From the NCBI RefSeq assembly GCF_028369105.1, contig NZ_JAQNDO010000001.1:1178001-1242000 (forward strand): a stretch of DNA of 64,000 nucleotides, given 5' to 3'. Below the pieces are notes generated by a model. That model saw only the letters and a list, made by a program, of their open reading frames with translations. It ran no database searches and was not told the DNA's origin. This document shows positions 2,201 through 36,680 of this stretch, in pieces. Each line of letters starts with the position of its first letter. The first letter of the stretch is position 1. The position numbers and the translations under genes were made by a program. The stretch is from Polyangium mundeleinium (GTDB lineage Bacteria > Myxococcota_A > Polyangia > Polyangiales > Polyangiaceae).

Positions 2201-4315
2201 TTACTTGAACTTCACCGCGGCCGTCTTCGTCTCCCCCGCGTTCACGGTGACGGTCACGGTCTGCTTCCCCCTCTCGGAATGGACGAAAGTCACCGTGTGC
2301 GTCCCCGCCGGCACGGACAGGCCGACCTTGGGCGTGTTGCCCAGCGGCCGCCCGTCCAGCACTACCTTCGAGACTGGGATCGAGTTGATGTTGAGCGTCC
2401 CATTGCCTTGCGCTGCCTGGGGGGTTGCCGTGCCAACCGTGGGCGTCGTCGTCGGCAAGGGGCCCGGCGCTCGTGCGGGTTCTCCTGGCGTTGCGGCCGG
2501 GATGGCGCCGACCGCCTCCGCCACGGTGGGTGATTCGGTGGGAGGGGTCGACGCTGTATCCACGGACTTCGGCGGCTCGGCATTGGCAGGGCTCGGATGG
2601 TCCGGTCCCGCCGCTTCCATGGGAATCAGGACAGGGCTTTCTTCCCCTCGCTCCACGCTCGCAGAGACGAGCTTCTCGCCCTTTCCTGGCGCGATGACTT
2701 TGATGATGCGGTTTCCTGGCACGAGATCACCGACGACACACGGCGTCGTCCCGCACCGCTCCTGACCATCCACGTAAATCGCGACCTTGCCGAGATCACG
2801 GCCGGTGACCTCGATCCGGAGCCCTCCTGTTTTCGGCGTCAGCACGAATGCCGCGAGACTCAAGGCCGCGAGCAGCGTCGAGACGCCAAGCACGATTCCA
2901 AGCTTCTTCGAAGCACTTCCCGGGGTCGGTGGGTTCGTCGCGGCCAGACCGTGTGTCGTCGTGGCCGATTGAGGGACCGATGGCAGCGCGGGCCGCGGCT
3001 CCGATGCCATCGGCGTATGCGTCGAGGACGTGGAGGAATACGCGGGACCAACCTGCGCCGGGGTCGAGGGCAGCGGCGCGCGGGCCGTCGGCGGCAGAGG
3101 GACTTCGATGGGAGGAGGCGGCGCTGCGCGGAGTTCGGGCGGCATCGCCTGCAGCGGCAGCGTTTGCAAAACGGCCGCGCGAGGCTTCTGTGGCTGGGGG
3201 GGCGGCACAGCCGTCTGTTCGGGAACAGGGTAGAGACCCGGTGGAAGCACGGCCGTCTGCACGGGCGGAGGGGGCATGGAGGGCGGCTTGGGCTGGAGCG
3301 GCATCGTCGCGCGCATCGATGCTTGCTTCGTGAGGCCAAGCAATGCGTGCGGGCGAATCTGCTGCGTCTCTCCGTCGTCGTACCCGCTGTCGAGTAGGGT
3401 GGCGAGCTCTCGGACGGCCTTCGCGGCGCTCGGCCATCGCTCGGTGGCGTTTTTTCGGAGACATAGATCCAGCCATTCATCGAATCCTCGCGGGAAGAGG
3501 TGCGCTTTGAAACCCGCCCGAGCGACCGCGGACGGCGTCGGCTGGATGGCGACGCCCATCATGATGTCCGCGATGCTCCCCCGCTCCGAGCCCGTCCACA
3601 GATGGCCCGGCGGAGCGCCGAGCAAGAGCTCGTAGGCAATGACGCCGAGGGCCCATATATCGGTTTGGGGCGTGACGCCGTGCGAGATGTCGACCCCCAT
3701 CTTCGCGGCCATGGGCCGCATGGCCGCGCCGAGCTGCTCGGGTGCGGCATATGCGGGGGATCCGACCTGCGTGGCCGTTCCCTGGACGCCCTCCTCGAGG
3801 ACCTTGGCGATACCGAAATCGACGACCTTGAGCAGCGGGCTCTTGTCGCGTTCGTACGTGAGAAACAGATTCCCGGGCTTGAGATCGCGGTGAACGACGC
3901 CCGCCGCGTGGGCTTGTCCGAGGGCATCTGCGAGCTGGAGGAAGAGGATTCGCATGAGGCCCGGCGGCACGGGCCCACGCTGCTTGATGTACCTGTCGAG
4001 TGTATCGCCTTCGAGTAGCTCCATCGCGAGGAAAGGCACGCCGCGCTGTGGATCGATCCCGGCGTCGAACACGTCGACGATGTGCGGGTTTTTTCCGATT
4101 CGCGCGCCGATGCGCGCCTCTTGAACAAAGAGGTCGCGGATCTCGGTGCGCTCGATGAGCTGCGGATGCACGAGCTTGAGCGCGCAGGTCTTTCCGGTCC
4201 CGAGGTGCGTCGCGCGAAACACCGCGGCCATGTTGCCCTGCCCGAGCCACGAATCGACGCGATACCGCCCGGCGACGACGTCGCCAGGGGCCGCGGGTCC
4301 TCCCGTCGATGACAT
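2201..4315 (-). CDS. Ser/Thr protein kinase with C-terminal PEGA domains
   Basis: This is a Hanks-type kinase of 704 residues. The kinase domain (about 18-285) has the Gly loop GQGNMAAVF, in which the third loop Gly is Ala, the catalytic HRDLKPGN and the metal-binding DFGIAK. A Pro-rich linker (about 335-465) leads to one membrane span (about 472-495, LGVSTLLAALSLAAFVL). Two PEGA-like beta domains follow, about 500-565 (IYVDGQERCGTTPC) and 640-704 (VVLDGRPLGNTPKVGLSV, ending AAVKFK). The kinase domain is therefore cytoplasmic and the PEGA domains lie across the membrane. The start fits the kinase N-terminus with only a short lead. It is divergent from vgrG1, 345 bp away. A role in T6SS control, as for PpkA-type kinases, is possible but only inferred from position. 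Confidence 0.92.
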   Translation of the reverse strand: MSSTGGPAAPGDVVAGRYRVDSWLGQGNMAAVFRATHLGTGKTCALKLVHPQLIERTEIRDLFVQEARIGARIGKNPHIVDVFDAGIDPQRGVPFLAMELLEGDTLDRYIKQRGPVPPGLMRILFLQLADALGQAHAAGVVHRDLKPGNLFLTYERDKSPLLKVVDFGIAKVLEEGVQGTATQVGSPAYAAPEQLGAAMRPMAAKMGVDISHGVTPQTDIWALGVIAYELLLGAPPGHLWTGSERGSIADIMMGVAIQPTPSAVARAGFKAHLFPRGFDEWLDLCLRKNATERWPSAAKAVRELATLLDSGYDDGETQQIRPHALLGLTKQASMRATMPLQPKPPSMPPPPVQTAVLPPGLYPVPEQTAVPPPQPQKPRAAVLQTLPLQAMPPELRAAPPPPIEVPLPPTARAPLPSTPAQVGPAYSSTSSTHTPMASEPRPALPSVPQSATTTHGLAATNPPTPGSASKKLGIVLGVSTLLAALSLAAFVLTPKTGGLRIEVTGRDLGKVAIYVDGQERCGTTPCVVGDLVPGNRIIKVIAPGKGEKLVSASVERGEESPVLIPMEAAGPDHPSPANAEPPKSVDTASTPPTESPTVAEAVGAIPAATPGEPARAPGPLPTTTPTVGTATPQAAQGNGTLNINSIPVSKVVLDGRPLGNTPKVGLSVPAGTHTVTFVHSERGKQTVTVTVNAGETKTAAVKFK

Positions 4316-4660
4316 GAGGCGGGAGTGTACAGGGAGTGGGTTGGTAGGGGAAACTGGTACGGGTACTACGTTCGTGGAATTGACATGGGAGCGGAGTTGG
4401 TGGGTCCCTTGGGATGGGGGATGTGTGGGTGATGTGGTTACATGTTGACTTTTGCGGAGGTGATGAGGTGGGGGATGGCGGATCCAGGGATGGGGCTGGG
4501 TTGGGGCGTACTAACTCGTTGAACTTGCTTGGGATTGTTGTGGTGCATACGAGAGTGTTCACGAGCAAACCCTGAGGTTTGGTAGGGTGAGATGTCGCGG
4601 AGCCTGGGCGCGGTGTACCGGTGCGAACATGGGTCGCCGCGGGAGTAAGGAAGAGGCTGT
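4316..4660. promoter_or_regulatory. Divergent intergenic region, kinase / vgrG1
   Basis: These 345 bp hold no credible gene. The plus strand is strikingly G-rich and runs lower in C than the flanking genes. The region must contain the promoters for both the kinase (leftward) and the T6SS island (rightward). A TTGACA occurs at 4380-4385, but no convincing -10 box is spaced from it. A purine-rich AAGGAAGAGG lies just before the vgrG1 ATG and can serve as its ribosome-binding site. Confidence 0.5.
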
Positions 4661-17572: not shown

Positions 17573-18874
17573 CTACTTCTTCTTCGGGTTCGTGCCCTGC
17601 ACCTTCTCTGCGTTCCGCGATTCGTCCCCGAGCGTTGGATCATCCAAGCACTTCGGCCGCTGCAGCACCGCGAGCTCCGCCGTCACGCTCGCGATGCCCC
17701 GCTCCGCCTTCGCGGGCATCGGCGCCGGCCTTTGCATCCGATCCCCCACCATCACCGCCACCAGGATCAGCGACATGAGCCCCCCGAGCACGTTCAACGT
17801 TTGCGGCCCCAAACGCATCGTGGCCGCGGCCGTTGTCGTCGGCGCGGCGTGCGATCGGACCATCGCCGCCGCCGTCGATCCATCCCGCCGTGAGGGCAGC
17901 GTCTCGGGAATCCACGACGCGCCGTCACTCCCGTTCCAGGGCTGCGTGATCCGCGGCTCCGGCGCCTGCCAATCTCGGGGCACACGCCCTGGTTCCATCC
18001 GTGGCCATGTGTCCCTCACGCGTGGCGCCGTGCAAGCTTGCAGCGCGAGATACAGGTCGAGCCGATCCGCCACGGCGGTGGCCTTCGCGATCCGTTGCTG
18101 CCGGTCTCGCTCCAGGCAATACGCGACGAGGTCGTCGAGCTCGTCGTCGACGTTCATCACGTAGTCCGAGACGCGCGGCGTCGGACGCAGGCGCAGGCCA
18201 TGGCCCTCCTTCAGCTCGAGCGGATAGACGGGACGCACGCCCGTCAGCATCTCGAAAAGCACGACGCCGAGCGAATAAACGTCGGTGCGCGCGTCCACGT
18301 CGTGCGACGACGCGAGCTGCTCGGGGCTCATGTAGGCCGGCGTTCCCACGACGCCGTTGCGCTCGGTCACGAGCGTGTCGTCCGCGTCGAGGTCCTTGGC
18401 CACGCCGAAATCGAGGACCTTCACGACGAACCCTTCGGTCCCGGGCTCTTGATGCAGGAAGACGTTCGACGGCTTGAGGTCGCGGTGGATGATGTTCTTC
18501 GCGTGCGCCGCCGCGAGCGCGCGGGCGATGTCGCGGCCGATCCGCGCAGCCTCCGGTTGTTCGAGGCGCCTCTTTCGGCGCAGGCGATCGGCGAGCGTCT
18601 CGCCGTGGAGGAGCTGCATCACGAGGTACGGCTCGCCGACGTCCGTCTCCGAAGCGTCGTGGACCTCGACGACATTCCGATGCGCGATGGCGCCGCAGAG
18701 GCGCGCCTCCCGGCACAATCGATACCGATGGCTCGGGGACGCGACGCGGAGGACCTTCACGGCGACACGACGAGAGGTCGCGATGTGCTCGGCCTCCCAC
18801 ACGATGCCCATCGCGCCCTCTCCGAGCGGGCGCAACAAACGATACCTGCCTCCGAGTCGGCTCCCGGCGATCAT
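17573..18874 (-). CDS. Membrane Ser/Thr protein kinase
   Basis: The start is set at the ATG giving MIAGSRLGGRYRLLRPLG; a longer ORF from 18922 adds 16 residues with no family match. The 433-residue protein has kinase motifs GEGAMGIVW, HRDLKPSNVF, DFGVAKD and a PAYMSPEQ activation segment (domain about 10-275). A linker of about 95 residues then leads to one transmembrane helix (about 372-395, LNVLGGLMSLILVAVMVG) and a short external tail ending in Lys. It lies between the kinase at 18975 (gap 100 bp) and the DUF2169 gene (gap 14 bp) on the same strand. Phosphorylation of T6SS-related partners is possible from context only. Confidence 0.92.
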   Translation of the reverse strand: MIAGSRLGGRYRLLRPLGEGAMGIVWEAEHIATSRRVAVKVLRVASPSHRYRLCREARLCGAIAHRNVVEVHDASETDVGEPYLVMQLLHGETLADRLRRKRRLEQPEAARIGRDIARALAAAHAKNIIHRDLKPSNVFLHQEPGTEGFVVKVLDFGVAKDLDADDTLVTERNGVVGTPAYMSPEQLASSHDVDARTDVYSLGVVLFEMLTGVRPVYPLELKEGHGLRLRPTPRVSDYVMNVDDELDDLVAYCLERDRQQRIAKATAVADRLDLYLALQACTAPRVRDTWPRMEPGRVPRDWQAPEPRITQPWNGSDGASWIPETLPSRRDGSTAAAMVRSHAAPTTTAAATMRLGPQTLNVLGGLMSLILVAVMVGDRMQRPAPMPAKAERGIASVTAELAVLQRPKCLDDPTLGDESRNAEKVQGTNPKKK

Positions 18875-18974
18875 GCACAGGGCGCTAGCAGTGTTTGCTC
18901 CGAAAGGACAAGTTCGTAGCAATTGTGAACACAGATATGGGTCGAAGGCTTCGCTGGACCCTCAGCGCGCTCGC

Positions 18975-20531
18975 TCAGAGTCCTGACGGGGCAAACGTGC
19001 CTTTCGCCTTGTTCACGTTCCTGCACCCGACCCGGAGCGTCAGCGTGCACGGCGGCAGCGGCGTGTACGTCGACGTGGGCTTCGCGGCCGCCACCACCTG
19101 CGCGGAGGACGACGGCGGCGCCGCGACGGTGGGTGCGGGCGTCGCGCTCGGAGCAGCCGTCTGCGTCGAGGCGGGCGGGGGCGTTGGCGTCGGGGGCGTC
19201 GTCGGCTCTGCTCGCTCCAGCGGAGCCGTCGGATGAGGGGTCGGTGCATCTGCGACGGTGGTGGCCGTCGGCGCCTGCGTTGCGTTCGCGGGGTCGCTCC
19301 CGGGCAGCCCGATCACGACGACAAGCAGGACGAGCGCGAGCATGGCCGCCGCGCCGAGCCCGAACGACAAGAGCAGGATCGTACGGCCCTGCCTGCGCCG
19401 TGGGATCGTCGTGGTGCTCGTCACGGGCTCTTCGCGCACCGTCGGCGGCGCGGTGAGCTCTGCGGCAGGCAGGGGAATCCCCGCCGTCAATGTCGAGGTT
19501 CGCCGGTGCGCGGAGAGCGACTCCTGCATCTCGCGTCGCCACGGCGGTAGCGGATCGGGCGTGGGCGCGTTCGCCTGCAAAAAGGCCGTGCCCTCGGGCG
19601 TCGTGTCGGGCGGCGCGAGCAGGGGCGACGACTGCGAGGGCCGCGGCGCGGAGATTGCGGCGCTCGACGGAGCCCGCCAGATCCGGCTCGACTCCACGAG
19701 CGGCGTGAGCAGCGCGACGAGCTCGGCGGCGTTCGCGACGCGCTTGTCGCGGTCTCGTTCGAGGCAGCGCATCACGATGTCCTCGAGCTCCGGCGGCACG
19801 TCGCGCACCCGCGCCGAAATCGGCGGGATGGGCGCGATCAGCACCTGGCGCACCACATCCTGCAGCGACCCGCTGAAGGGGCGAACGCCCGCGAGCAGCT
19901 CGTAGAGCAGGATCCCGAGTGACCAGAGATCCGTGCGATGGTCGATGTCCGCGCGAAGCCCGACCTGCTCGGGGCTCATGTAGCCGGGAGAGCCGATCAC
20001 CATGCCCGTCATGGTTGCCTGCGTCTCTTCGGTCGGACCGAGGCTTTTCGCGACGCCGAAGTCGAGCACCTTCACCACGAACTCGTCTTCGCCCGCGCCC
20101 GGCGCGCGGTGGAGGAAGACGTTCGCGGGCTTCAGATCACGGTGCATGATCTTCGCCTGATGTGCCGCTTCGAGGGCGTTCGCGATGTCGCGGGCGATCC
20201 GCGCGGCAACCTTCGGCTCGATGCGCCGCTTGTTCTTGAGCATGTCGGCGAGCGACTCGCCCGAGAGGAGCTCGAGCGCGAGGTACGGCTCGCCGTCGTC
20301 GGTCTCGCCTGCATCGAGCAGGCGCACGATGTTCGGGTGCGACAAGCGCGACGAGAGCCGCACCTCGCGCAGGAAGCGCTGCCGGAGCTCCGTCGTCGAC
20401 TTCGAGAGCAACTTGAGCGCGACCTCGCGGCGCGTGTCGATCTCCTCCGCGGCCCAGACCGTGCCCATCGTGCCTGCGCCGATGGCCCGGACGAGGCGGT
20501 ACTTCTTCCCGATCGTACTTCCAGCTTTCAT
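18975..20531 (-). CDS. Membrane Ser/Thr protein kinase
   Basis: The 518-residue kinase starts MKAGSTIGKKYRLVRAIG. It has GAGTMGTVW, HRDLKPANVFL, DFGVAKS and SPGYMSPEQVG (domain about 8-275). A Pro/Ala linker precedes a single span (about 387-410, AAAMLALVLLVVVIG). After the membrane comes a Thr/Pro/Ala-rich stretch of about 80 residues and a short segment CTLTLRVGCRNVNKAKG. The leader of this minus-strand run is divergent from the GTPase gene with 156 bp between the starts. The fold and order match the neighbouring kinases at 17573 and 28432, which points to paralogue expansion. Confidence 0.93.
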   Translation of the reverse strand: MKAGSTIGKKYRLVRAIGAGTMGTVWAAEEIDTRREVALKLLSKSTTELRQRFLREVRLSSRLSHPNIVRLLDAGETDDGEPYLALELLSGESLADMLKNKRRIEPKVAARIARDIANALEAAHQAKIMHRDLKPANVFLHRAPGAGEDEFVVKVLDFGVAKSLGPTEETQATMTGMVIGSPGYMSPEQVGLRADIDHRTDLWSLGILLYELLAGVRPFSGSLQDVVRQVLIAPIPPISARVRDVPPELEDIVMRCLERDRDKRVANAAELVALLTPLVESSRIWRAPSSAAISAPRPSQSSPLLAPPDTTPEGTAFLQANAPTPDPLPPWRREMQESLSAHRRTSTLTAGIPLPAAELTAPPTVREEPVTSTTTIPRRRQGRTILLLSFGLGAAAMLALVLLVVVIGLPGSDPANATQAPTATTVADAPTPHPTAPLERAEPTTPPTPTPPPASTQTAAPSATPAPTVAAPPSSSAQVVAAAKPTSTYTPLPPCTLTLRVGCRNVNKAKGTFAPSGL

Positions 20532-20687
20532 CGTTGGTCAGGACAGATGTGCCGGCAATGCCGCCAATGCGGAGCATCGTAGCGTACCAGGCGAACCGTG
20601 TAACGATTCGTGGTAAGATTTCTTGCGCGCTACCAGGGCCGCGTGATCTGATGGCACGAGCCAAACCATGTCCGACGCGAGGGGCGA
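20532..20687. promoter_or_regulatory. Divergent promoter region, kinase / GTPase operon
   Basis: The kinase (leftward) and GTPase (rightward) starts are separated by these 156 bp, which must carry both promoters. A GAGGGGCGA purine block directly before 20688 can serve as ribosome-binding site. No clear sigma-70 or sigma-54 boxes could be assigned. Confidence 0.4.
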
Positions 20688-28431: not shown

Positions 28432-30390
28432 CTAGTTGCACTTCTTGAACAACCCGACGGTCTTGCATTCGGGCTTCTTCGTTGCCGGCGCGGGCTTCGC
28501 CACCTGCGTCGTCGGCTTCGTCACTGGCGCCTTGTACGTAGACGTCGGCGTGGGCAGTGCCGCGGCCGTCGACGCCACAGGCGGCGCGGGAACCGACGTT
28601 GATGCAGCCGTCACGACGGGCGCCGCCGTCGCCACCTCGGACGGCACCGCCGCCGGCACACTCGTCCCCTCCGCCTGCGCCGTCGGCTGCACCGCCACCT
28701 CCGCCTTCACCGGAGGCCTCGGCAACTCCTGCCCGACCGACCCCGCCGCCGCGCTCTTCGCCGCCTCGGGGCCCGCTGCCTTTCCGCTCGCCGCCTCCTC
28801 CCCCGCGCCGATCTTCCCCGCATTCACCACCAGCAACCCGACCACCCCGATCGCTGCCGCCACCCCCGCGCCCATCACGCCAAACAGCACCCCCTTCCCA
28901 CGCTTCTGCCTCCCCCCAGCCACCGCTGGATCCATCATCAGCGGCATCGGCGGCGCTGGATACCCGCCCGTCCCGTGCGAAAGCGCGCCCGCCGCCGACG
29001 TCGTCCCCGCGTGATCCACGCGCCCGCCCGCCAGCGTCGCCCGGATCTCCGGCGTGATCATCTGCGTTTGCCCGTTCCCCGCTTGCTCCGACACGGGCGG
29101 CTCCAGGCTGAACGACGACTGCCGATGCGCAGCAATCGCCTGATGCATCTCTTCCTTCCACGCGGGCGCTGGAGACGCGATCGGCAGGTTTGGCTGCAAG
29201 AGCTGCGTCCCCGTCGACGCGTCCTCTCCACGCGCCGCCGACGGCGCAGGACGACGCATGTTCGCGAGCATCCGACCCTGGAGCGGCATCGTCGCGGCGA
29301 GATCGCTCTCGTCCTCGTCCTCCGTGCTCGCTGCGATCGCCACGCGCGGCGCGGGATTCGGCAACGGTACGGTCACGTCCATCGGCGTGAACATCGGCTT
29401 GCGCTCGGGGCTCGACATGGGTGGCGGCGGTGCTGCCTCGACGCCCGTGAACGTCGGCTTGCGCTCGGGGGCCGGCGTCTGCGGGATCGGTTGGCCTACA
29501 CCCGTGAACGTCGGCTTGCGCGTCATGGGGCGCGGCATCCCCGCGATCGCGAGCAGCGTGCGCGCAAGCTCATCCGTGCTCGGGAACCGCGCGTCTCGCT
29601 TCGCGGCCGTGCAACGCGCCACGACCTCGTCGAACTCCGTTGGCACGTCGCGCACCTTGCTCGACGGCGGCGGCACGGGCGTGATCAGGATGTGACGGAT
29701 CACGTCCTGCACCGAGCCCGTGAACGGACGGCTTCCCGTCAGCATCTCGTAGAGCACGATCCCGATCGACCAGATGTCCGTGCGGTGATCGAGGTCCTTG
29801 CGCATGCCCACTTGCTCGGGGCTCATGTACGCGGGCGACCCCACGGCGGTGCCCGTTTGCGTCGCGACGCTGTCCACCGAGTCGAGGTTTTTGCACACGC
29901 CGAAGTCGAGGATCTTCGACACGAACGTGTCCTCGGGCATGCCAGGTTCACGGTGGAGGAAGATGTTCGCGGGCTTGAGATCTCGATGGATGACTTGCGC
30001 GGCATGCGCGACCGCGAGCCCACTCGCAATCTCGCCCGCGATGCGCGCCGCCATCGCAGGCTCGATGCGCCGCTTCTCCTTCAGCAGGTCGCCGAGGGTT
30101 TGCCCCTGCAAGAGCTCGAGCACGAGGAACGGCTCTCCCTGCGGCGTCTCGCCCACGTCGAAGATCTGGACGATGTTGCGATGGTACAACTTCCCGCACG
30201 CCCGCGCCTCGCGCAGCAGGCGCTGGCGCAGGTCGTTCGTCAGGTGCTCCTTCTGCTGCGGCAGGATCAGCTTGAGCGCGACCTTGCGGTTCATCGTGTG
30301 GTCGTACGCCGCCCACACGGCTCCCATCGCACCCTGACCGATCGCCTGTTCGAGCCGGTACTTGCCGCCGAGGAGATCGCCCGATTTCAT
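28432..30390 (-). CDS. Membrane Ser/Thr protein kinase heading the PEGA/Cys-rich operon
   Basis: The 652-residue kinase has GQGAMGAVW, HRDLKPANIFL, DFGVCKN (Cys in place of the usual Ala) and SPAYMSPEQVG (domain about 8-275). A disordered linker carries three near-repeats of KPTFTGV/KPMFTPM (about 310-365) with Thr residues that could be autophosphorylation sites read by FHA proteins. One membrane helix (about 500-530, FGVMGAGVAAAIGVVGLLVV) leads to an Ala/Pro/Val tail ending CKTVGLFKKCN. Five bases separate its stop from the PEGA-like gene, so it likely heads a five-gene transcript down to 23517. A sensor kinase controlling or served by the exported partners is an inference. Confidence 0.93.
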   Translation of the reverse strand: MKSGDLLGGKYRLEQAIGQGAMGAVWAAYDHTMNRKVALKLILPQQKEHLTNDLRQRLLREARACGKLYHRNIVQIFDVGETPQGEPFLVLELLQGQTLGDLLKEKRRIEPAMAARIAGEIASGLAVAHAAQVIHRDLKPANIFLHREPGMPEDTFVSKILDFGVCKNLDSVDSVATQTGTAVGSPAYMSPEQVGMRKDLDHRTDIWSIGIVLYEMLTGSRPFTGSVQDVIRHILITPVPPPSSKVRDVPTEFDEVVARCTAAKRDARFPSTDELARTLLAIAGMPRPMTRKPTFTGVGQPIPQTPAPERKPTFTGVEAAPPPPMSSPERKPMFTPMDVTVPLPNPAPRVAIAASTEDEDESDLAATMPLQGRMLANMRRPAPSAARGEDASTGTQLLQPNLPIASPAPAWKEEMHQAIAAHRQSSFSLEPPVSEQAGNGQTQMITPEIRATLAGGRVDHAGTTSAAGALSHGTGGYPAPPMPLMMDPAVAGGRQKRGKGVLFGVMGAGVAAAIGVVGLLVVNAGKIGAGEEAASGKAAGPEAAKSAAAGSVGQELPRPPVKAEVAVQPTAQAEGTSVPAAVPSEVATAAPVVTAASTSVPAPPVASTAAALPTPTSTYKAPVTKPTTQVAKPAPATKKPECKTVGLFKKCN

Positions 30391-30570
30391 GGTCCCGCGA
30401 GCATTCCATGGAAGCGAGCGGTGTCACAAGAATTTTGTCTGCCAACGTGCTCCGCTTACGAACTTTTGCAGATCGTCAGCGGTTCCCAAGACGATGCCGG
30501 ATTGGTCTGGGCGCGCGTTCAGCCGCAACACATGTGCCTGGTCGACGAGCCGTGCGGCGCTGCGCGGGAT

Positions 30571-31920
30571 CTACCGAGCCAAACCGAGGATCACGGCCAC
30601 ACCGACGCCAAAGGCCACGAGGGCGCTCACGGCGAGGCCTAGGAGGGGCAAGCGCTTCCGGGTCTGCGACGCCGGCGCATGGCTCGACCGGACGACGGGC
30701 CTCTCCACGTGCTGCACGGATGGCGGCGGCGGCGGTGGACTCGGTGGAGGGGTGGCCCGCTGCGCCTGCGCGAGTGCTGCACGCGCGTCGATCATGAGCG
30801 CGGTTCCGCGGGGACCCGTGATCCGCTTCGCCGGTTCCGGCGCGAGGATCGCCGTCCCTGCTTTGCCGACCGGTGGCTTGGGGGCCGACGAGGGCGAAAA
30901 AGGCATCGTGGTATCCACCGCCGGCGACGCCGTCCACGGCAGCATCGGTGCAATGGGCGCCGGGGAGTTTCTCGCCAAAGGTTCCGTCACTTCGAGGTTC
31001 GCCGGCACCTCCGGGCGCGCTGCGGCGGGCGCGGGAAGCGCCAGGGCGCGCTCCGCGAGACCGATGTGAACCCGCGATCCTTCCTCGGGTCCCACGTAGG
31101 TCTGAAGCAGGCGCTCGACCACCGTGGCGGACGCAATCCGTTTGGCGCGGTCACGTTCGAGGCACATGGCCACGACGTCATCGAACCCCGGCTCGATGTG
31201 GCGCAGGATCTCCGACACGCGCGGGATGTTGCCGGTCACGACACGAATGAGCACCTCTTGTCCACCGCCGGGAAAAGGTCGCGTCCCCGTGAGCATCTCG
31301 AAGAGCACCACGCCCAGCGACCAGACATCCGTGCGGGCGTCGAGATCCCGCGCCCCTTTGATGGCCTCCGGGCTCATGTACGCCGGGGACCCGACAGCGC
31401 CGCCGACAGCCGTCACGAGGGATTCGTTCACCGCGAGGTTCTTGGCGACCCCGAAATCGAGGACCTTCACGACGAGCCCGTCGCCTCCGGCCTCCTGATG
31501 GAGAAATACATTGGCGGGCTTGAGGTCTCGGTGAATGACGTGCACGGCGTGCGCGGCCGCAAGCGCGCGCGCAATGTCGCGCCCGATCTGGGCCGCGAGG
31601 GGCTGCTCGAGTCGACGCTTTCGACGAAGCAGCTCGGCGAGCGTTTCGCCGGAGAGGAGCTGCATCACGAGGTAGGGCTCGCCCTCGTGTGTCTCCCCGG
31701 TGTCGTACATCTCGATGACGTTTCGGTGTGCAATGGATCCGCAAATGCGCGCTTCACGGAGCAGGCGGTGCCGGAGGTCCTCGGAGGGCCGGGTGAGCAG
31801 CTTGATGGCCACGCGCCGCTGGGTGGTCTCGTGCAGAGCTTCCCACACCACGCCCATGGCACCCGCGCCGAGCTGGCGCAGGAGGCGGTACTTGCCCCCG
31901 AGTCGATCCCCGGTGTTCAT
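30571..31920 (-). CDS. Ser/Thr protein kinase with C-terminal membrane tail
   Basis: The start is chosen at the ATG 31920 (MNTGDRLGGKYRLLRQLG); the ORF from 31992 adds 24 residues without homology. The 449-residue kinase has GAGAMGVVW, HRDLKPANVFL, DFGVAKN and SPAYMSPEAIKG (domain about 10-270). A linker of about 150 residues ends in basic residues and a C-terminal membrane anchor (about 425-449, LLGLAVSALVAFGVGVAVIL). Nothing projects past the membrane, so sensing must be by partners. It is closely related to the kinase at 17573. It lies 180 bp upstream of the kinase at 28432 on the same strand; that gap contains no gene. Confidence 0.93.
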   Translation of the reverse strand: MNTGDRLGGKYRLLRQLGAGAMGVVWEALHETTQRRVAIKLLTRPSEDLRHRLLREARICGSIAHRNVIEMYDTGETHEGEPYLVMQLLSGETLAELLRRKRRLEQPLAAQIGRDIARALAAAHAVHVIHRDLKPANVFLHQEAGGDGLVVKVLDFGVAKNLAVNESLVTAVGGAVGSPAYMSPEAIKGARDLDARTDVWSLGVVLFEMLTGTRPFPGGGQEVLIRVVTGNIPRVSEILRHIEPGFDDVVAMCLERDRAKRIASATVVERLLQTYVGPEEGSRVHIGLAERALALPAPAAARPEVPANLEVTEPLARNSPAPIAPMLPWTASPAVDTTMPFSPSSAPKPPVGKAGTAILAPEPAKRITGPRGTALMIDARAALAQAQRATPPPSPPPPPPSVQHVERPVVRSSHAPASQTRKRLPLLGLAVSALVAFGVGVAVILGLAR

Positions 31921-31930
31921 CCAGAGCAAC

Positions 31931-32104
31931 CTACCAGCGCGTGTCTTTGTAGGGCAACTTCCGTGCGTACTCACACACGCTGCGCGCATCAATCATCGAC
32001 GTTGTTCCTGCCGGCGCGTATTTCGACCCGAACAGTGGCGCGATGCGCAGGCCGAAAATGCGCGGTTTGTCCTCGTTGATTCTATTGAAATCGGTCAAGA
32101 GGTT
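31931..32104 (-). pseudogene. Possible 3' remnant of a lost gene
   Basis: Between two kinase genes one frame encodes a non-repetitive, protein-like end (about 58 residues: ANLLTDFNRINEDKPRIFGL, later MIDARSVCEYARKLPYKDTRW less one). Its amino-acid balance is unlike the Arg/Pro/Ala-rich noise of shadow frames and it ends in a proper stop. No start codon or signal can be found on its own. I do not recognise the family. It could be a remnant left by rearrangement, or chance. Confidence 0.25.
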
Positions 32105-32147: not shown

Positions 32148-34874
32148 TCATCGCTGCGAGAGCCACGCCACGATTTCCGCCCTTGGCGCCGCCCAGGCCT
32201 CACCCCCGGCGGCATAAGTCGCCCGGGCCTCTTCCGCGAGCTTTTTCGCACGGGCGCGGTCGCTGCCCGCCGCCACCAGGGCGCGCGCCAGCAAAAACCT
32301 CGTCGACGCGTCCTTGTACGGCCCCTCGGCGCCCGACGCCCGCAACGAAAGCGCCCGCTCGATCAGCGGGATCGCTGCCGTCGGCTCGCCGGTGTCCATG
32401 TGCAGCTCGCCCAGCTTTTCCAGCGGCTCGGCGAGGTTCGGGTGCGTGGGCCCGAGGGCCTTCTCGTAGATGGCGACCACCCGCATGAGCCGAGGGCGGG
32501 CATCGGCGAATGCGCGCTCCATCATCCTCACCTCGGCCAGGTTGAGCAGCGTGGTGGCGAGCGCGGGGTGCTCGGGGCCCAGCGCGCGCTCGCGGATGGA
32601 GAAGGCCCGCTCGGCCGCTGCGCGCGCCGCCGGCAGATCGTTCAGCCGGACATGGACCTCCACGCTGTTGTTCAGGACCGTCGCGCAGGCCGGATGATCC
32701 GGGCCCAGCATCCCTTCGAACGTCGCGAGCGCGCTCTGGTAGTGGCCGCGCGCCTCGGCATATCGGCCGAGCGCCACCAGCGCGGCGCCGAGGTTGGTCT
32801 TCACCTTGGCGGTGTGGAGATGCGCGTCGCCATGCAGCCGCTGTTCGAGCGAATGGGCGCGCGAGGCGGCGTCGAGCGCCAGGTCGAGCTTGCCCTCCTC
32901 GACGTAGACGGTCGCTTCGTTCCCGGCCAGCGCAGCCTCGAACTCCGCGTCTCCGCCGAGCCGAGCGATTGCCCCCGCGGCGAGCTCCGCCCACCGGTGC
33001 GCGTCCGCTGGGCGACCGAGCGGGTGTCCCGCCAGGAACACCAGCGAGGTCAGCCCATTCGCGGCCTGCCAATCGTGGCGGCCCGCCTCCGCTGCCCGGA
33101 TCGACGCGAGGAACGTCGCTTCGGCCTCCGCGTGCGCGCCCTGGGACTGTTGCAGCTTTCCCAAGAGGTCGAGCGCGTCGGCGAGCAGCGGCTGGTGGGC
33201 GATCGCTTTGGCCTCTGCGACCACCTCGTCGGCGAGAGCGCGCGCGGTCGGGTATTTCGCAGCGTCGTACAGCGCCTTGCCGCGCGCGAGTTGCCCGCGT
33301 GTGGTGTCGATGCGCGCGCGCAGCGCGGGATCGTCCGGCGGCGGGAGTGGACCCGAGAGCGCCGCCACGTCGGCGCAGGTGCGCACCGGGGTCATCGCGT
33401 TCACGGCCTGCACGGCGCGTCCGACCGTGGCGCTGTCCGCCTCGGAGAAGATGTCGACCAGCGCCTTCAGCTCCTTGGCGCGCAGATCGAGGCAGGCCAT
33501 GCGCAGCGCCAGCACCGACTCCGCCTGCTCGCCGCGCACCCGCGTCGCCTCGCACGCATCGACATGGCCGGCGACCCAGGCCGCCGCCTGCGCGTCGAGC
33601 GCGCGCTCCACCTGCCCGAGCGCCACCGCGGCGAACGGCTCCTTGGAGGCGCCGAACGCATCGCGCACGGCGGCTCGCCGCGCATCATCCCACACACCCG
33701 AAAGCTTCACCTCCGCGCCGCGGCAGACACGCTGCTGCTCGCGCACGACCCAGGCAGGGACGACGAGACCGGCGGCGACGAGGACGCCTGCGAGGACGGC
33801 GACAGCGGCGCGGCGGCGGGTGCGCGCGGGGTCGGCTTCGAGCTTTTGGAGCAGCGCCTCCATGGAGGGAAACCGCTCTTCCTGCTGCGGGCGCAGGGCG
33901 CGCAGCAGGGCGCGCCGCACATGCTCCGGCACCTCTCCGCCGCCGGGCGGCTCGGCGGGCCCTCGGGCCTTGCTTGCCGCGAGCTCGTCGAGCGTCTTGC
34001 CCTCGAAGGCCGAGCGCCGGTACAGCGCCTCGTACAGCGCGACCGCGAAGCTGAACTGATCCGCGCGTGGTCCCGCCCGCTCGCCGTGGTGCTGCTCCGG
34101 GGACATGTAGAGCGGCGTCCCGAGGAGCGCGCCCGTTCGCGTCAGCGCCGTGCCCGCCCCCTCGGCCGTGGCCTTGCCCGAGGCGTCCTCACCCGTCCAG
34201 CCTGCGAGGCCGAAATCACTCACGCGGACGCGCCCGTCCTTGCCGAGGAGCACGTTGGCGGGCTTGAAATCCCGGTGCACGAGCCCCGCCCCGTGGGCCG
34301 CCACGAGCCCTCGTCCGGCTTGCGTGAAGCGCTCCAGGATCTCGCGGGTGGGGTGAGGCCCCTCTTCGAGCCACGCGGAGAGCGGCTGCCCGTCGACGTA
34401 CTCCATCGCGATGAAGATCTGGCCGCCGTGGCTGTCGACGTCGTAGATCGTCACGACGTTCGGATGCGAGAGCCGCGCGGCGATGCGCGCCTCGCGCAAG
34501 AGCCTCGCCGACGCGATGTCGGCTCCAACGCGCGCGGTCACCTCGGCGCGCAGGACCTTGAGCGCCACCTTGCGATCGAGCGTTGGATCGTGTGCGGCGT
34601 ACACGATCCCCATGCCGCCTCTGCCGAGCACGTCGGCGATGGTGTAGCGGTCGAGCTGTGCGCCGCGCTCCAGCGGGGCCGCGTCGTCGAAGGCCGGGGG
34701 AGGGGAGGCCTCCTCCGCGTCGCTCCCCGGCGTGAGCGAGGCTCGGGCCGCCGCGATCACCAACAAACGGCAGGGCTCGCACGCGTCGATGTGGTCGTCG
34801 AGCCTGCCGGCTTCGGCTGCGACGAGTCGCCCCTCGACGAATGCGAGGATCGTGTTCTCGGAAGGGTGCTCCAT
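32148..34874 (-). CDS. Ser/Thr kinase with anti-sigma-type zinc motif and TPR domain
   Basis: The ATG at 34874 (MEHPSENTILAFVEGRLVAA) is preferred over the ORF start at 35579, which would read through the opposite sigma gene. Residues 1-45 carry H-x3-C-x2-C in DDHIDACEPCR, the ZAS/zf-HC2 signature of zinc anti-sigma factors. The kinase domain (about 75-340) has GRGGMGIVY, HRDFKPANVLL (Phe in place of the usual Leu) and DFGLAGW. A single span (about 355-372) leads to about 500 residues of TPR-like helices (for example LGRYAEARGHYQSALATFEG, GPEHPALATTLLNLAEV), the kinesin-light-chain-like type. It is divergent from an ECF sigma gene with 22 bp between the start codons. It could bind or phosphorylate that sigma factor. 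Confidence 0.92.
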   Translation of the reverse strand: MEHPSENTILAFVEGRLVAAEAGRLDDHIDACEPCRLLVIAAARASLTPGSDAEEASPPPAFDDAAPLERGAQLDRYTIADVLGRGGMGIVYAAHDPTLDRKVALKVLRAEVTARVGADIASARLLREARIAARLSHPNVVTIYDVDSHGGQIFIAMEYVDGQPLSAWLEEGPHPTREILERFTQAGRGLVAAHGAGLVHRDFKPANVLLGKDGRVRVSDFGLAGWTGEDASGKATAEGAGTALTRTGALLGTPLYMSPEQHHGERAGPRADQFSFAVALYEALYRRSAFEGKTLDELAASKARGPAEPPGGGEVPEHVRRALLRALRPQQEERFPSMEALLQKLEADPARTRRRAAVAVLAGVLVAAGLVVPAWVVREQQRVCRGAEVKLSGVWDDARRAAVRDAFGASKEPFAAVALGQVERALDAQAAAWVAGHVDACEATRVRGEQAESVLALRMACLDLRAKELKALVDIFSEADSATVGRAVQAVNAMTPVRTCADVAALSGPLPPPDDPALRARIDTTRGQLARGKALYDAAKYPTARALADEVVAEAKAIAHQPLLADALDLLGKLQQSQGAHAEAEATFLASIRAAEAGRHDWQAANGLTSLVFLAGHPLGRPADAHRWAELAAGAIARLGGDAEFEAALAGNEATVYVEEGKLDLALDAASRAHSLEQRLHGDAHLHTAKVKTNLGAALVALGRYAEARGHYQSALATFEGMLGPDHPACATVLNNSVEVHVRLNDLPAARAAAERAFSIRERALGPEHPALATTLLNLAEVRMMERAFADARPRLMRVVAIYEKALGPTHPNLAEPLEKLGELHMDTGEPTAAIPLIERALSLRASGAEGPYKDASTRFLLARALVAAGSDRARAKKLAEEARATYAAGGEAWAAPRAEIVAWLSQR

Positions 34875-34896
34875 CGTCGTTGCGGGGCTGTGTATC
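34875..34896. promoter_or_regulatory. 22-bp gap between divergent kinase and sigma starts
   Basis: The two start codons face apart with 22 bp between them and neither has a Shine-Dalgarno motif in that space. Promoters must therefore lie within the opposing coding regions, or one transcript is leaderless, or a downstream start is used (GTG 34906 for the sigma gene). Confidence 0.45.
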
Positions 34897-35808
34897 ATGC
34901 CCCGCGTGCATCCGGATCCGCTGCCCCTTCTGTCCCGCGCCTTCTGCGGGTGCCTCGCGCCTTCGCTGGCGGCGAGGCTCGGCGACGTCGACGCGCTGGA
35001 GCTCCGCTTGCGAGCGTTGCTCGAAGAGGCGCGGCGCGCCTTTCCCGACGTCGTGGTGGACGAGGCGGCATTCATCGGCCATCTCGCGGAGCGCATCGCG
35101 GGCGAGGACGACATCGAAGAGGCGCTCTCCAGCGTGCTCGCCGCCGACCTCCTGCTCGCCTTCGCGTGCCTTGCAGGCGACGCCGCTGCGCTACGGGAGA
35201 TCGACCGGCGCATCGATGTCGAGGTGCACGCCGCGCTCCGGGGGATGGCCGCCGCGTCCGAGCTCGTCGATGAGGTGCGATCGGTGCTTGGCCCCAGGCT
35301 GCTCGTGGGCGATGGGGGAGCGCCGAAGCTCGCGACGTACGCCGGGCTCGGGCCGCTCTCGGCGTGGATCCGTGTGGCCGCGCTGCGGACGGGGATCAGC
35401 CTGCGCAGGCGCGGGCGGCGCGAGGTGCGCGCGGACGAGCGAGCGCTGCTGGCGGCCATGGATCCGACGCTCGATCCGGAGTCGAGGCTCTCGCGCGAGC
35501 GCCACGCGGAGGAGCTACGCGAGGCCCTGCGCGAGGCCATGGCGGCGCTTTCGAGCCGCGACCGCAACCTCTTGCGCATGTACTACGCGGAGGGGATCAA
35601 GCTCGACAGGCTGGCGATCATGCACCGCGTGAATGCCTCGACGATCTCCCGCTGGATTGCGCGGGCGCGTGAGGAGGTGCTCGAACGCACGCGCGGCGGC
35701 CTCAGCGCGCGCCTGAAGCTCTCCGCCTCGCAGGTCGAGAGCCTGCTTGGCCTGGCCCAATCGCTGGACGTGAGCCTGGAGAGCTTGCTCGGAAGATCGG
35801 CTGGCTGA
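34897..35808 (+). CDS. ECF-type RNA polymerase sigma factor
   Basis: The start is ATG 34897 (MPRVHPDPLPLLSRAFCGCL); the longer ORF from 34732 lies antisense within the kinase gene. The protein is 303 residues. A sigma-2-like helical region lies about 85-200 (EALSSVLAADLLLAFACLAG, YAGLGPLSAWIRVAALRTGI). A sigma-4 helix-turn-helix lies about 210-270 (LSSRDRNLLRMYYAEGIKLD, RVNASTISRWIARAREEV). This is the myxobacterial ECF type that sits beside Ser/Thr kinases; I recall the ECF43 group, but the group assignment is unchecked. It directs RNA polymerase to an unknown regulon. The divergent kinase with an anti-sigma zinc motif is the obvious regulator. Confidence 0.88.
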   Translation: MPRVHPDPLPLLSRAFCGCLAPSLAARLGDVDALELRLRALLEEARRAFPDVVVDEAAFIGHLAERIAGEDDIEEALSSVLAADLLLAFACLAGDAAALREIDRRIDVEVHAALRGMAAASELVDEVRSVLGPRLLVGDGGAPKLATYAGLGPLSAWIRVAALRTGISLRRRGRREVRADERALLAAMDPTLDPESRLSRERHAEELREALREAMAALSSRDRNLLRMYYAEGIKLDRLAIMHRVNASTISRWIARAREEVLERTRGGLSARLKLSASQVESLLGLAQSLDVSLESLLGRSAG

Positions 35809-35960
35809 GGCCGGACGAAATTTTTTTCGAGCTTCCGTGCAAGAACCGCAGGCGGCTGGCGTCAGGTAGCGCGAAAGGCGAGCGGGGACCGCGTGCGGGC
35901 CGTGGGCGAGGTATGCGCCCGCGTGGGCTCGTGGTCCATCCGCGATTCCAGGTGAAACCC

Positions 35961-36680
35961 ATGCGGTCGTTGATCGGTATTCTTGTGCCCTCGCTCCTCG
36001 TCGGATTCCTTCTCGGCGTCAGTGGTTGTTCGGGGGGAGCAGGTGGTGCGGGAGGCGAAGGGGGCGAGGGCGGAGACGCGGGTGAGGGCGGGGGAGGAGG
36101 CGCGGGCGGGACCTGCGATCCGATGAAACAAGGCTTCATTTCGTGTGGCCCCGAGGGGATCGCTATCACCTGTCAGCCGGGGACCTACTGCTCGGATCCC
36201 ACGATCTTGGACTGCACCGAAGGTTGCGTATCGAATGCGAACTGCGGCTGCGGCGAGGTATGCACGGGTGGCTCCTGTGTCACGGCGAGTGTATGCGGGG
36301 ATGGTAAGTGCACCGGCGGCGAGGACGCCGCCTCCTGCCCGGCCGATTGCTCGTCGAACCCCTGCGGCAACGGGGTATGCGACGCCGGCGAATCGTTCGG
36401 GACTTGTCCGGAAGATTGCGCGCCGCCGAACCCCTGCGGCAACGGCGTATGTGATGCCGGCGAGTCGTCGCAGAGCTGCCCTCAGGATTGCCCGGACCTG
36501 AAGCTCGAGTGCTACGATCATTGCGACGTGTACAACTTCTTCATGTGCTTCAACCCGGGCGGGCTCCAGATCTGCTACGACGCGTGCGACGCTGCCACCG
36601 ATGCAATGCTGAAGCAATTCAGCGTCTGCGCTGCGTCCGGGGCGGTATCGTGCGAGCCGAGCTGCTTCGACTACCTCTGA
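35961..36680 (+). CDS. Cys-rich surface lipoprotein
   Basis: The start at ATG 35961 has AGGTG 6 nt upstream and opens a lipoprotein signal (MRSLIGILVPSLLVGFLLGV, lipobox VSGC). A Gly/Glu-rich linker follows. Then come many Cys residues: CVSNANCGCGEVCTGGSC, and three repeats of the form CGNGVCDAGES..CPxDC (about 105-180), a calcium-loop-like Cys module frequent in myxobacterial exoproteins. The C-terminal part (YDHCDVYNFFMCFNPGGLQI, CEPSCFDYL) is a separate Cys fold. It is an outer-membrane lipoprotein of unknown role. It lies 152 bp after the sigma gene and 164 bp before the next gene, so is probably a single transcription unit. Confidence 0.85.
   Translation: MRSLIGILVPSLLVGFLLGVSGCSGGAGGAGGEGGEGGDAGEGGGGGAGGTCDPMKQGFISCGPEGIAITCQPGTYCSDPTILDCTEGCVSNANCGCGEVCTGGSCVTASVCGDGKCTGGEDAASCPADCSSNPCGNGVCDAGESFGTCPEDCAPPNPCGNGVCDAGESSQSCPQDCPDLKLECYDHCDVYNFFMCFNPGGLQICYDACDAATDAMLKQFSVCAASGAVSCEPSCFDYL

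Follow-up and report, generated by a model that had tools for sequence, protein, structure and literature searches.

We analysed a 64,000-nucleotide stretch of the 13.25-Mb genome of Polyangium mundeleinium (contig NZ_JAQNDO010000001.1, positions 1,178,001 to 1,242,000; hereafter the window), in which a protein kinase gene on the minus strand diverges from a plus-strand gene for an extracytoplasmic function (ECF)-like sigma factor of the TIGR03001 Sig-70_gmx1 family (hereafter gmx1). There is good support for identifying the N-terminal domain of this kinase as a zinc anti-sigma (ZAS)-type domain, here joined to a catalytically intact kinase: such domains are paired with gmx1 sigma genes across genomes, their ligands are conserved, they match anti-sigma profiles, and ZAS proteins without a kinase occur at two gmx1 loci. 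On the strength of sequence comparison, which supplies the evidence throughout (the structure models are thin), we propose that the pair is probably a sigma/anti-sigma module whose anti-sigma factor is itself a Ser/Thr kinase, phosphorylation freeing the sigma factor. If this is true, one protein combines the anti-sigma and kinase functions and is paired across the whole family with a single sigma family, in bacteria whose kinomes are very large.

The zinc anti-sigma domain and its kinase

A first-pass annotation of this DNA had noticed an H-x3-C-x2-C motif at the kinase N-terminus, and the motif is indeed present as HIDACEPC (window 34793-34770, minus strand). It is longer than that annotation saw: a fourth likely ligand, H3, lies 25 residues before the second His, which gives the ChrR-type pattern H-x24-H-x3-C-x2-C. 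Passages of one source describe H/C-x24/25-H-x3-C-x2-C as the pattern of ZAS anti-sigma factors and give H-x24-H-x3-C-x2-C for ChrR and RslA (PMC6432622). The Pfam profile zf-HC2 (PF13490) matched the window kinase at 22.8 bits against a cut-off of 22.2, and at 24.6 bits when the domain was searched alone. A scan for close relatives yielded three records, from Polyangium fumosum and two Polyangium sp. isolates. The first-pass annotation had made conservation of the Cys and His residues in orthologues a test of its proposal; all four ligands are retained in 3/3 of these orthologues, as is the motif in most kinases adjacent to gmx1 genes (see below).

The same arrangement is found in more distant domains. 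An alignment of 63 domains shows no variation at the H, C and C of HxxxCxxC; the motif was itself the basis on which they were picked. The fourth ligand formed no part of the selection, and all 95 domains picked by HxxxCxxC have a Cys or His 18-31 residues upstream of the motif, with Cys at exactly -25 in 81 of them. His occupies -25 in the window protein, its three orthologues and one further locus (L163), all five having no Cys in the 18-31 range. The window clade carries His as its fourth ligand (window 34866-34868, minus strand; HHCC, ChrR-like), and 90 of the 95 ZAS-kinases carry a Cys within that range, 81 of them at the exact position (CHCC, RsrA-like), a difference that may alter redox behaviour.

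Profile comparisons tie these domains to known anti-sigma factors. The zf-HC2 profile was matched by 60 of the 63 aligned domains at E up to 0.1. When a ZAS profile built from these 63 domains was searched against the PDB (E up to 10), seven matches were obtained. The best was chain B of 3hug (8e-8), annotated in the PDB as a probable conserved membrane protein, which we take to be RslA; the others were DdvA (8rlz, 2e-5), a CHAT domain-containing protein (8rot, 0.0021), ChrR (2q1z and 2z2s, ~6e-3), RsiW (5wuq, 0.1) and a ferritin (0.78). The 991-residue chain of 8rot begins with the same stretch as 8rlz, so a ZAS domain at the head of a long protein has precedent; from this identity we infer that 8rot is DdvA itself. 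DdvA, the second-best match, shows no kinase in its PDB listing, and its sigma factor DdvS is active in Myxococcus xanthus once DdvA is inactivated, according to passages of PMC4374960.

The window protein therefore resembles the class I anti-sigma factors ChrR, RslA, RsrA and RsiW in its zinc pattern, its profile matches and the position of its gene beside an ECF-type sigma gene. It differs from them in that its ZAS domain is fused to an intact Ser/Thr kinase and tetratricopeptide repeats (TPRs), in its gmx1-family partner and in having no recognised helix 4. Between Polyangium orthologues the ratio of nonsynonymous to synonymous substitution (dN/dS) in the ZAS domain was 0.03, 0.23 and 0.27, indicating purifying selection; the linker that follows is less constrained (0.15, 0.70 and 0.47).

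The kinase domain itself matched Pkinase at 1.2e-36, and the catalytic Lys, HRD Asp and DFG Asp of Hanks-type Ser/Thr kinases are all intact. All 79 ZAS-kinases adjacent to gmx1 genes retain the Lys; 78 retain the HRD Asp and 78 the DFG Asp, the remaining sequence having a gap. A hydrophobic segment of the transmembrane type was found in 76/95 ZAS-kinases at the threshold used. Topology is read from this single segment; if it is a real transmembrane helix, the TPR region is probably extracytoplasmic. The earlier suggestion that one protein can bind the sigma factor and phosphorylate it or a partner is borne out in part, in that a ZAS anti-sigma domain stands on a catalytically intact kinase; binding of zinc and of the sigma factor, and the target of phosphorylation, are predictions from this architecture.

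Pairing with gmx1 sigma factors

The neighbour of the kinase gene was called an ECF sigma factor in the first-pass annotation, and it matches TIGR03001 at 224 bits against a cut-off of 154.6. Its orthologues in the three Polyangium relatives are 91-96% identical. Pfam recognises region 4 (PF08281), and the gmx1 family profile aligns with solved chains of sigma-H, sigma-E and SigW from region 2 through region 4; the Pfam profile Sigma70_r2 is matched by just 5/37 family members, the window protein not among them. Three alignments to solved sigma factors place ECF region 2.2 at residues 125-126, and across 124 gmx1 sigmas residue 126 is Asp or Glu in all 124 and residue 125 in 101. A tail of the SLDxSL type outside region 4 carries Ser or Thr at position 282 in 87%, at 289 in 95% and at 293 in 97% of these sequences. 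The AlphaFold model of the sigma factor was poor (pLDDT 49), and one scan found no viral copies of it.

The same 124 loci served for the survey of sigma-kinase pairs that the first-pass annotation had proposed. They were picked by sigma similarity alone and comprise the window, five paralogues, 38 loci found with TIGR03001 in a 188-genome phylum sample, and 80 loci from 97 relatives, the best not already taken among the matches listed to the window sigma; many are related to one another. By motif, a kinase lay within 1.5 kb of the sigma gene at 84/124 loci, and the nearest such kinase carried the ZAS motif before its kinase domain at 79 of the 84, beyond what chance would give. These 79 genes are mostly divergent from the sigma gene (57), with 20 downstream and 2 upstream on the same strand. 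By profile, to which the 63 domains used in building it match by construction, a ZAS domain occurred in the fetched stretch at 100/124 loci, at 97 as part of a kinase and at 83 no farther than 1.5 kb from the sigma gene; a ZAS-kinase lay within 1.5 kb at 80 loci and farther within the stretch at 17. Three loci (L090, L147 and the short L169) had a ZAS reading frame without a kinase. At L090 (6705-7565) and L147 (3954-4700) the protein beside the gmx1 sigma consists of a ZAS domain and a predicted transmembrane helix, which by sequence is the layout of an ordinary anti-sigma factor. No ZAS domain was found at 24 loci, 9 of which lie at a contig end.

We also asked where ZAS domains occur irrespective of the sigma survey. 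In the P. mundeleinium genome, nine zf-HC2 places were found among the 150 of 386 candidates that were scored. Five of them are ZAS-kinases that adjoin gmx1 sigmas. The other four are labelled from our reading of their sequences: three anti-sigma-like proteins next to ordinary ECF genes, and a spurious hit in a frame resembling a radical-SAM enzyme. Scoring of 150 candidates in each of six Polyangium genomes gave 29 strong ZAS domains; for 28 of these a listed gmx1-type sigma is no more than 5 kb away (no more than 1 kb for 25), and the 29th is at a contig end. Conversely, 28 of the 30 listed gmx1-type sigmas (of 34 matches) have a ZAS domain within 5 kb. In the phylum sample, where 34 candidates were scored in most genomes, 47 ZAS domains reached 50 bits or more. 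A gmx1 sigma is present within 5 kb of 30 of these, and 43 belong to gmx1-bearing genomes, though gmx1 occurs in just 18/188 (E up to 1e-30). In one genome (G099) the gmx1 sigmas number at least 18 and the ZAS domains at least 24. These comparisons indicate a pattern more general than the first-pass annotation had supposed, with ZAS-kinases usually near gmx1 sigmas in Polyangium and its relatives, and the pairing supplies a specific partner candidate for five kinases of the P. mundeleinium genome.

The two proteins also vary together. Over 79 pairs, the correlation of distances was 0.437 for sigma and ZAS, 0.337 for sigma and kinase, and 0.322 for ZAS and kinase, none of which was reached in 500 within-genome shuffles. 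In 55 non-redundant pairs tested by whole-set shuffles, the sigma-ZAS value was 0.193 (reached in 0/500), the sigma-kinase value 0.101 (23/500) and the ZAS-kinase value 0.133 (4/500). By this measure the short ZAS domain follows the sigma factor no less closely than the whole kinase.

Proposed restraint and release of the sigma factor

Two modes of ECF control, by anti-sigma factors and by Ser/Thr kinases, are treated as separate in passages of a review (PMC8103513). A known overlap is mycobacterial PknB, which acts on separate anti-sigma proteins (PMC8999054, in part); its phosphorylation of RshA releases SigH (PMC13147305, in part). The window pair would share such kinase-linked release, with the difference that kinase and anti-sigma factor are separate proteins in the PknB-RshA-SigH system. 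We found no description of a ZAS-kinase fusion in the open literature searched; the 2021 Nucleic Acids Research ECF reclassification, outside that search, could list these proteins.

In the mechanism we propose, the N-terminal zinc domain would keep the gmx1 sigma bound to the membrane on its cytoplasmic side. The kinase would be activated by a signal from across the membrane, probably sensed by the TPR region; a phosphate added to the ZAS domain, to the linker or to the sigma factor would then loosen the clamp and free a sigma factor that is already competent to bind core. The direction of control is suggested by the acidic residues of region 2.2. ECF43 sigmas have no such acidic motif (EcfP has STTA in its place) and gain charge through phosphorylation, as passages of PMC8999054 describe. 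The gmx1 sigmas retain the acids and so were rejected as members of ECF43; their binding to core should thus not depend on phosphorylation, a point in favour of restraint and release. Because the gmx1 sigmas keep acids that are absent from ECF43, phosphorylation in these pairs probably releases the sigma factor rather than charging it. More tentatively, and with somewhat less than even confidence, we extend this proposal to the clade: one-protein switches, multiplied in one genome to at least 18 gmx1 genes, in which a transmembrane kinase anti-sigma factor frees the sigma that it holds through phosphorylation in cis, either of the clamp or of that sigma. Such a switch would join the anti-sigma and kinase-ECF routes in a single chain.

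Several observations weigh against restraint by a ZAS clamp. The motif is absent from 5 adjacent kinases, and 15 of the 124 loci have no ZAS domain in the stretch despite flanks of 1.5 kb or more on each side; one of these is among the six gmx1 sigmas of the P. mundeleinium genome itself. Of 20 extra ZAS stretches, most of them picked for having no gmx1 gene listed nearby, 16 hold ZAS-kinases; a gmx1 sigma proved to be present after all in 3 of the 16, and 12 have no sigma gene in the stretch, some stretches ending at a contig edge. A clear transmembrane helix is absent in 19/95 ZAS-kinases, several of which end within 15 residues of the kinase domain. The AlphaFold model of the ZAS domain, made from a thin four-sequence alignment, has two helices (4-31 and 33-47; pTM 0.44) rather than the three of ChrR; no PDB chain resembling this shallow model was found, and inspection by eye alone revealed nothing recognisable as the helix 4 of class I anti-sigma domains. 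Constraint on the kinase domain (dN/dS 0.11, 0.12 and 0.14) exceeds that on the ZAS domain in 2/3 comparisons. Finally, the non-redundant co-variation values are small, and cassette duplication could account for part of the co-variation.

An alternative is that the kinase activates the sigma factor by phosphorylation, as in ECF43, and that the ZAS domain is a mere docking arm bringing the sigma to the kinase. A kinase gene beside the ECF gene is a hallmark of ECF43-type systems (passages of PMC8999054 and PMC13147305), which include EcfP-PknT and EcfK-PknS and which the window pair resembles in this respect, and the nearly invariant catalytic residues of the ZAS-kinases, together with the conserved Ser/Thr 282, 289 and 293 of the sigma as possible targets, would suit it. 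The acids at 126 (124/124) and 125 (101/124) already supply the charge for core binding, and the kinase-less ZAS proteins at L090 and L147 suit restraint better. The ECF43 kinases, moreover, come without mention of an anti-sigma domain in the passages cited. Other kinase-linked ECF groups retain a DAED-like motif and may work differently (PMC8999054, in part), so the acids alone leave an effect of the kinase on the sigma possible. We regard activation of this kind as unlikely, and prefer release from a ZAS clamp.

Less likely still is that the ZAS domain senses redox state or zinc and adjusts the kinase with no contact to the sigma factor, the kinase acting on another protein. In RsrA, RslA and ChrR the ZAS domain is responsive to oxidants (PMC6432622, in part), and unlinked ZAS-kinases exist. 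This reading is opposed by 8 of the 9 zf-HC2 places found in the P. mundeleinium genome (150/386 candidates scored), which adjoin sigma genes, by sigma-ZAS co-variation in excess of sigma-kinase co-variation, and by kinase-less ZAS proteins beside gmx1 sigmas. Chance adjacency with a coincidental Cys/His motif might be expected where the window has five other kinases and the genome no fewer than 150 (every one of the 150 scored, out of 329 candidates, matched), and we reject it as extremely improbable given the 124-locus survey (ZAS-kinases in the stretch at 97 loci) and the agreeing patterns of own-genome paralogues and six Polyangium genomes.

Some individual loci depart from the common layout. 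The ZAS-less gmx1 locus of P. mundeleinium (L055, C1:4117357) has no ZAS protein or kinase within ~5 kb. A ZAS-kinase at L278 (4117-7946) is divergent from an ordinary ECF gene with an EDLVQE motif, not from gmx1, and among the four of the 20 extra stretches that hold no ZAS-kinase, three (L280, L283 and L284) have kinase-less ZAS proteins beside ordinary ECFs; L278 is the remaining one of the 16 stretches with a ZAS-kinase.

Gene starts and neighbouring genes

Start codons were judged from an alignment of the window with the three orthologous Polyangium loci, and both starts in Table 1 are retained in 4/4; the kinase begins MEHPSEN. An upstream kinase start (MIHSP) was rejected since indels break its frame in the three other loci, and a sigma start at ATG 34897 was rejected since indels put it out of frame in the same three. 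The 22-bp gap given by the first-pass annotation is correct from ATG to ATG, and the orthologue frames lengthen it to 31 bp. That annotation had concluded that there is no room for ordinary promoters, which does not follow: the gap contains a block, TGTGTATCATG, identical in 4/4 aligned loci, and promoter elements can overlap the opposite reading frame. No sigma-70 consensus promoter was detected when 34780-35010 was scanned.

Table 1. Features of the divergent pair and its surroundings (window coordinates)
Feature	Position	Strand	Details
ZAS-kinase gene	34874-32148	-	908 amino acids from ATG 34874; ZAS-like domain, linker, Ser/Thr kinase, predicted transmembrane helix, TPRs
ZAS domain	34731..34874	-	Residues 1-48; likely ligands H3, H28, C32, C35
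Protein kinase domain	33840..34646	-	Lys (VALK), HRDFKPAN and DFG intact
Predicted transmembrane helix	33753..33809	-	Mean hydropathy 2.46 across 19 residues
TPR-rich C-terminal region	32220..33311	-	TPR_12, seven stretches
Inter-start gap, 31 bp	34875..34905	.	Contains conserved TGTGTATCATG at window 34889-34899
gmx1 ECF-like sigma	34906..35808	+	GTG start at 34906, 300 amino acids; TIGR03001 224 bits
Region 2.2 acidic pair D125 E126 (P0002 numbering)	35269..35274	+	Counterpart of the last two residues of the ECF DAED motif
Sigma region 4	35518..35676	+	PF08281 27.9 bits, cut-off 25.7
Conserved sigma C-terminal tail with S282, S289, S293	35740..35775	+	Outside sigma4
Cys-rich lipoprotein-like open reading frame 3' of sigma	35913..36680	+	Kept beside the pair in three orthologous loci

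The five other kinases of the window (2204-4510, 17576-18961, 18978-20537, 28435-30423 and 30574-31992; minus strand) all have no HxxxCxxC motif. Those at 28435-30423 and 30574-31992 lie on the same strand as the ZAS-kinase and downstream of it; only the one at 30574 is clearly retained, in the L118 stretch and not in the L119 or the shorter L120 stretch. The Cys-rich lipoprotein-like reading frame is 75-91% identical across all three Polyangium orthologue loci and is a candidate target or partner.

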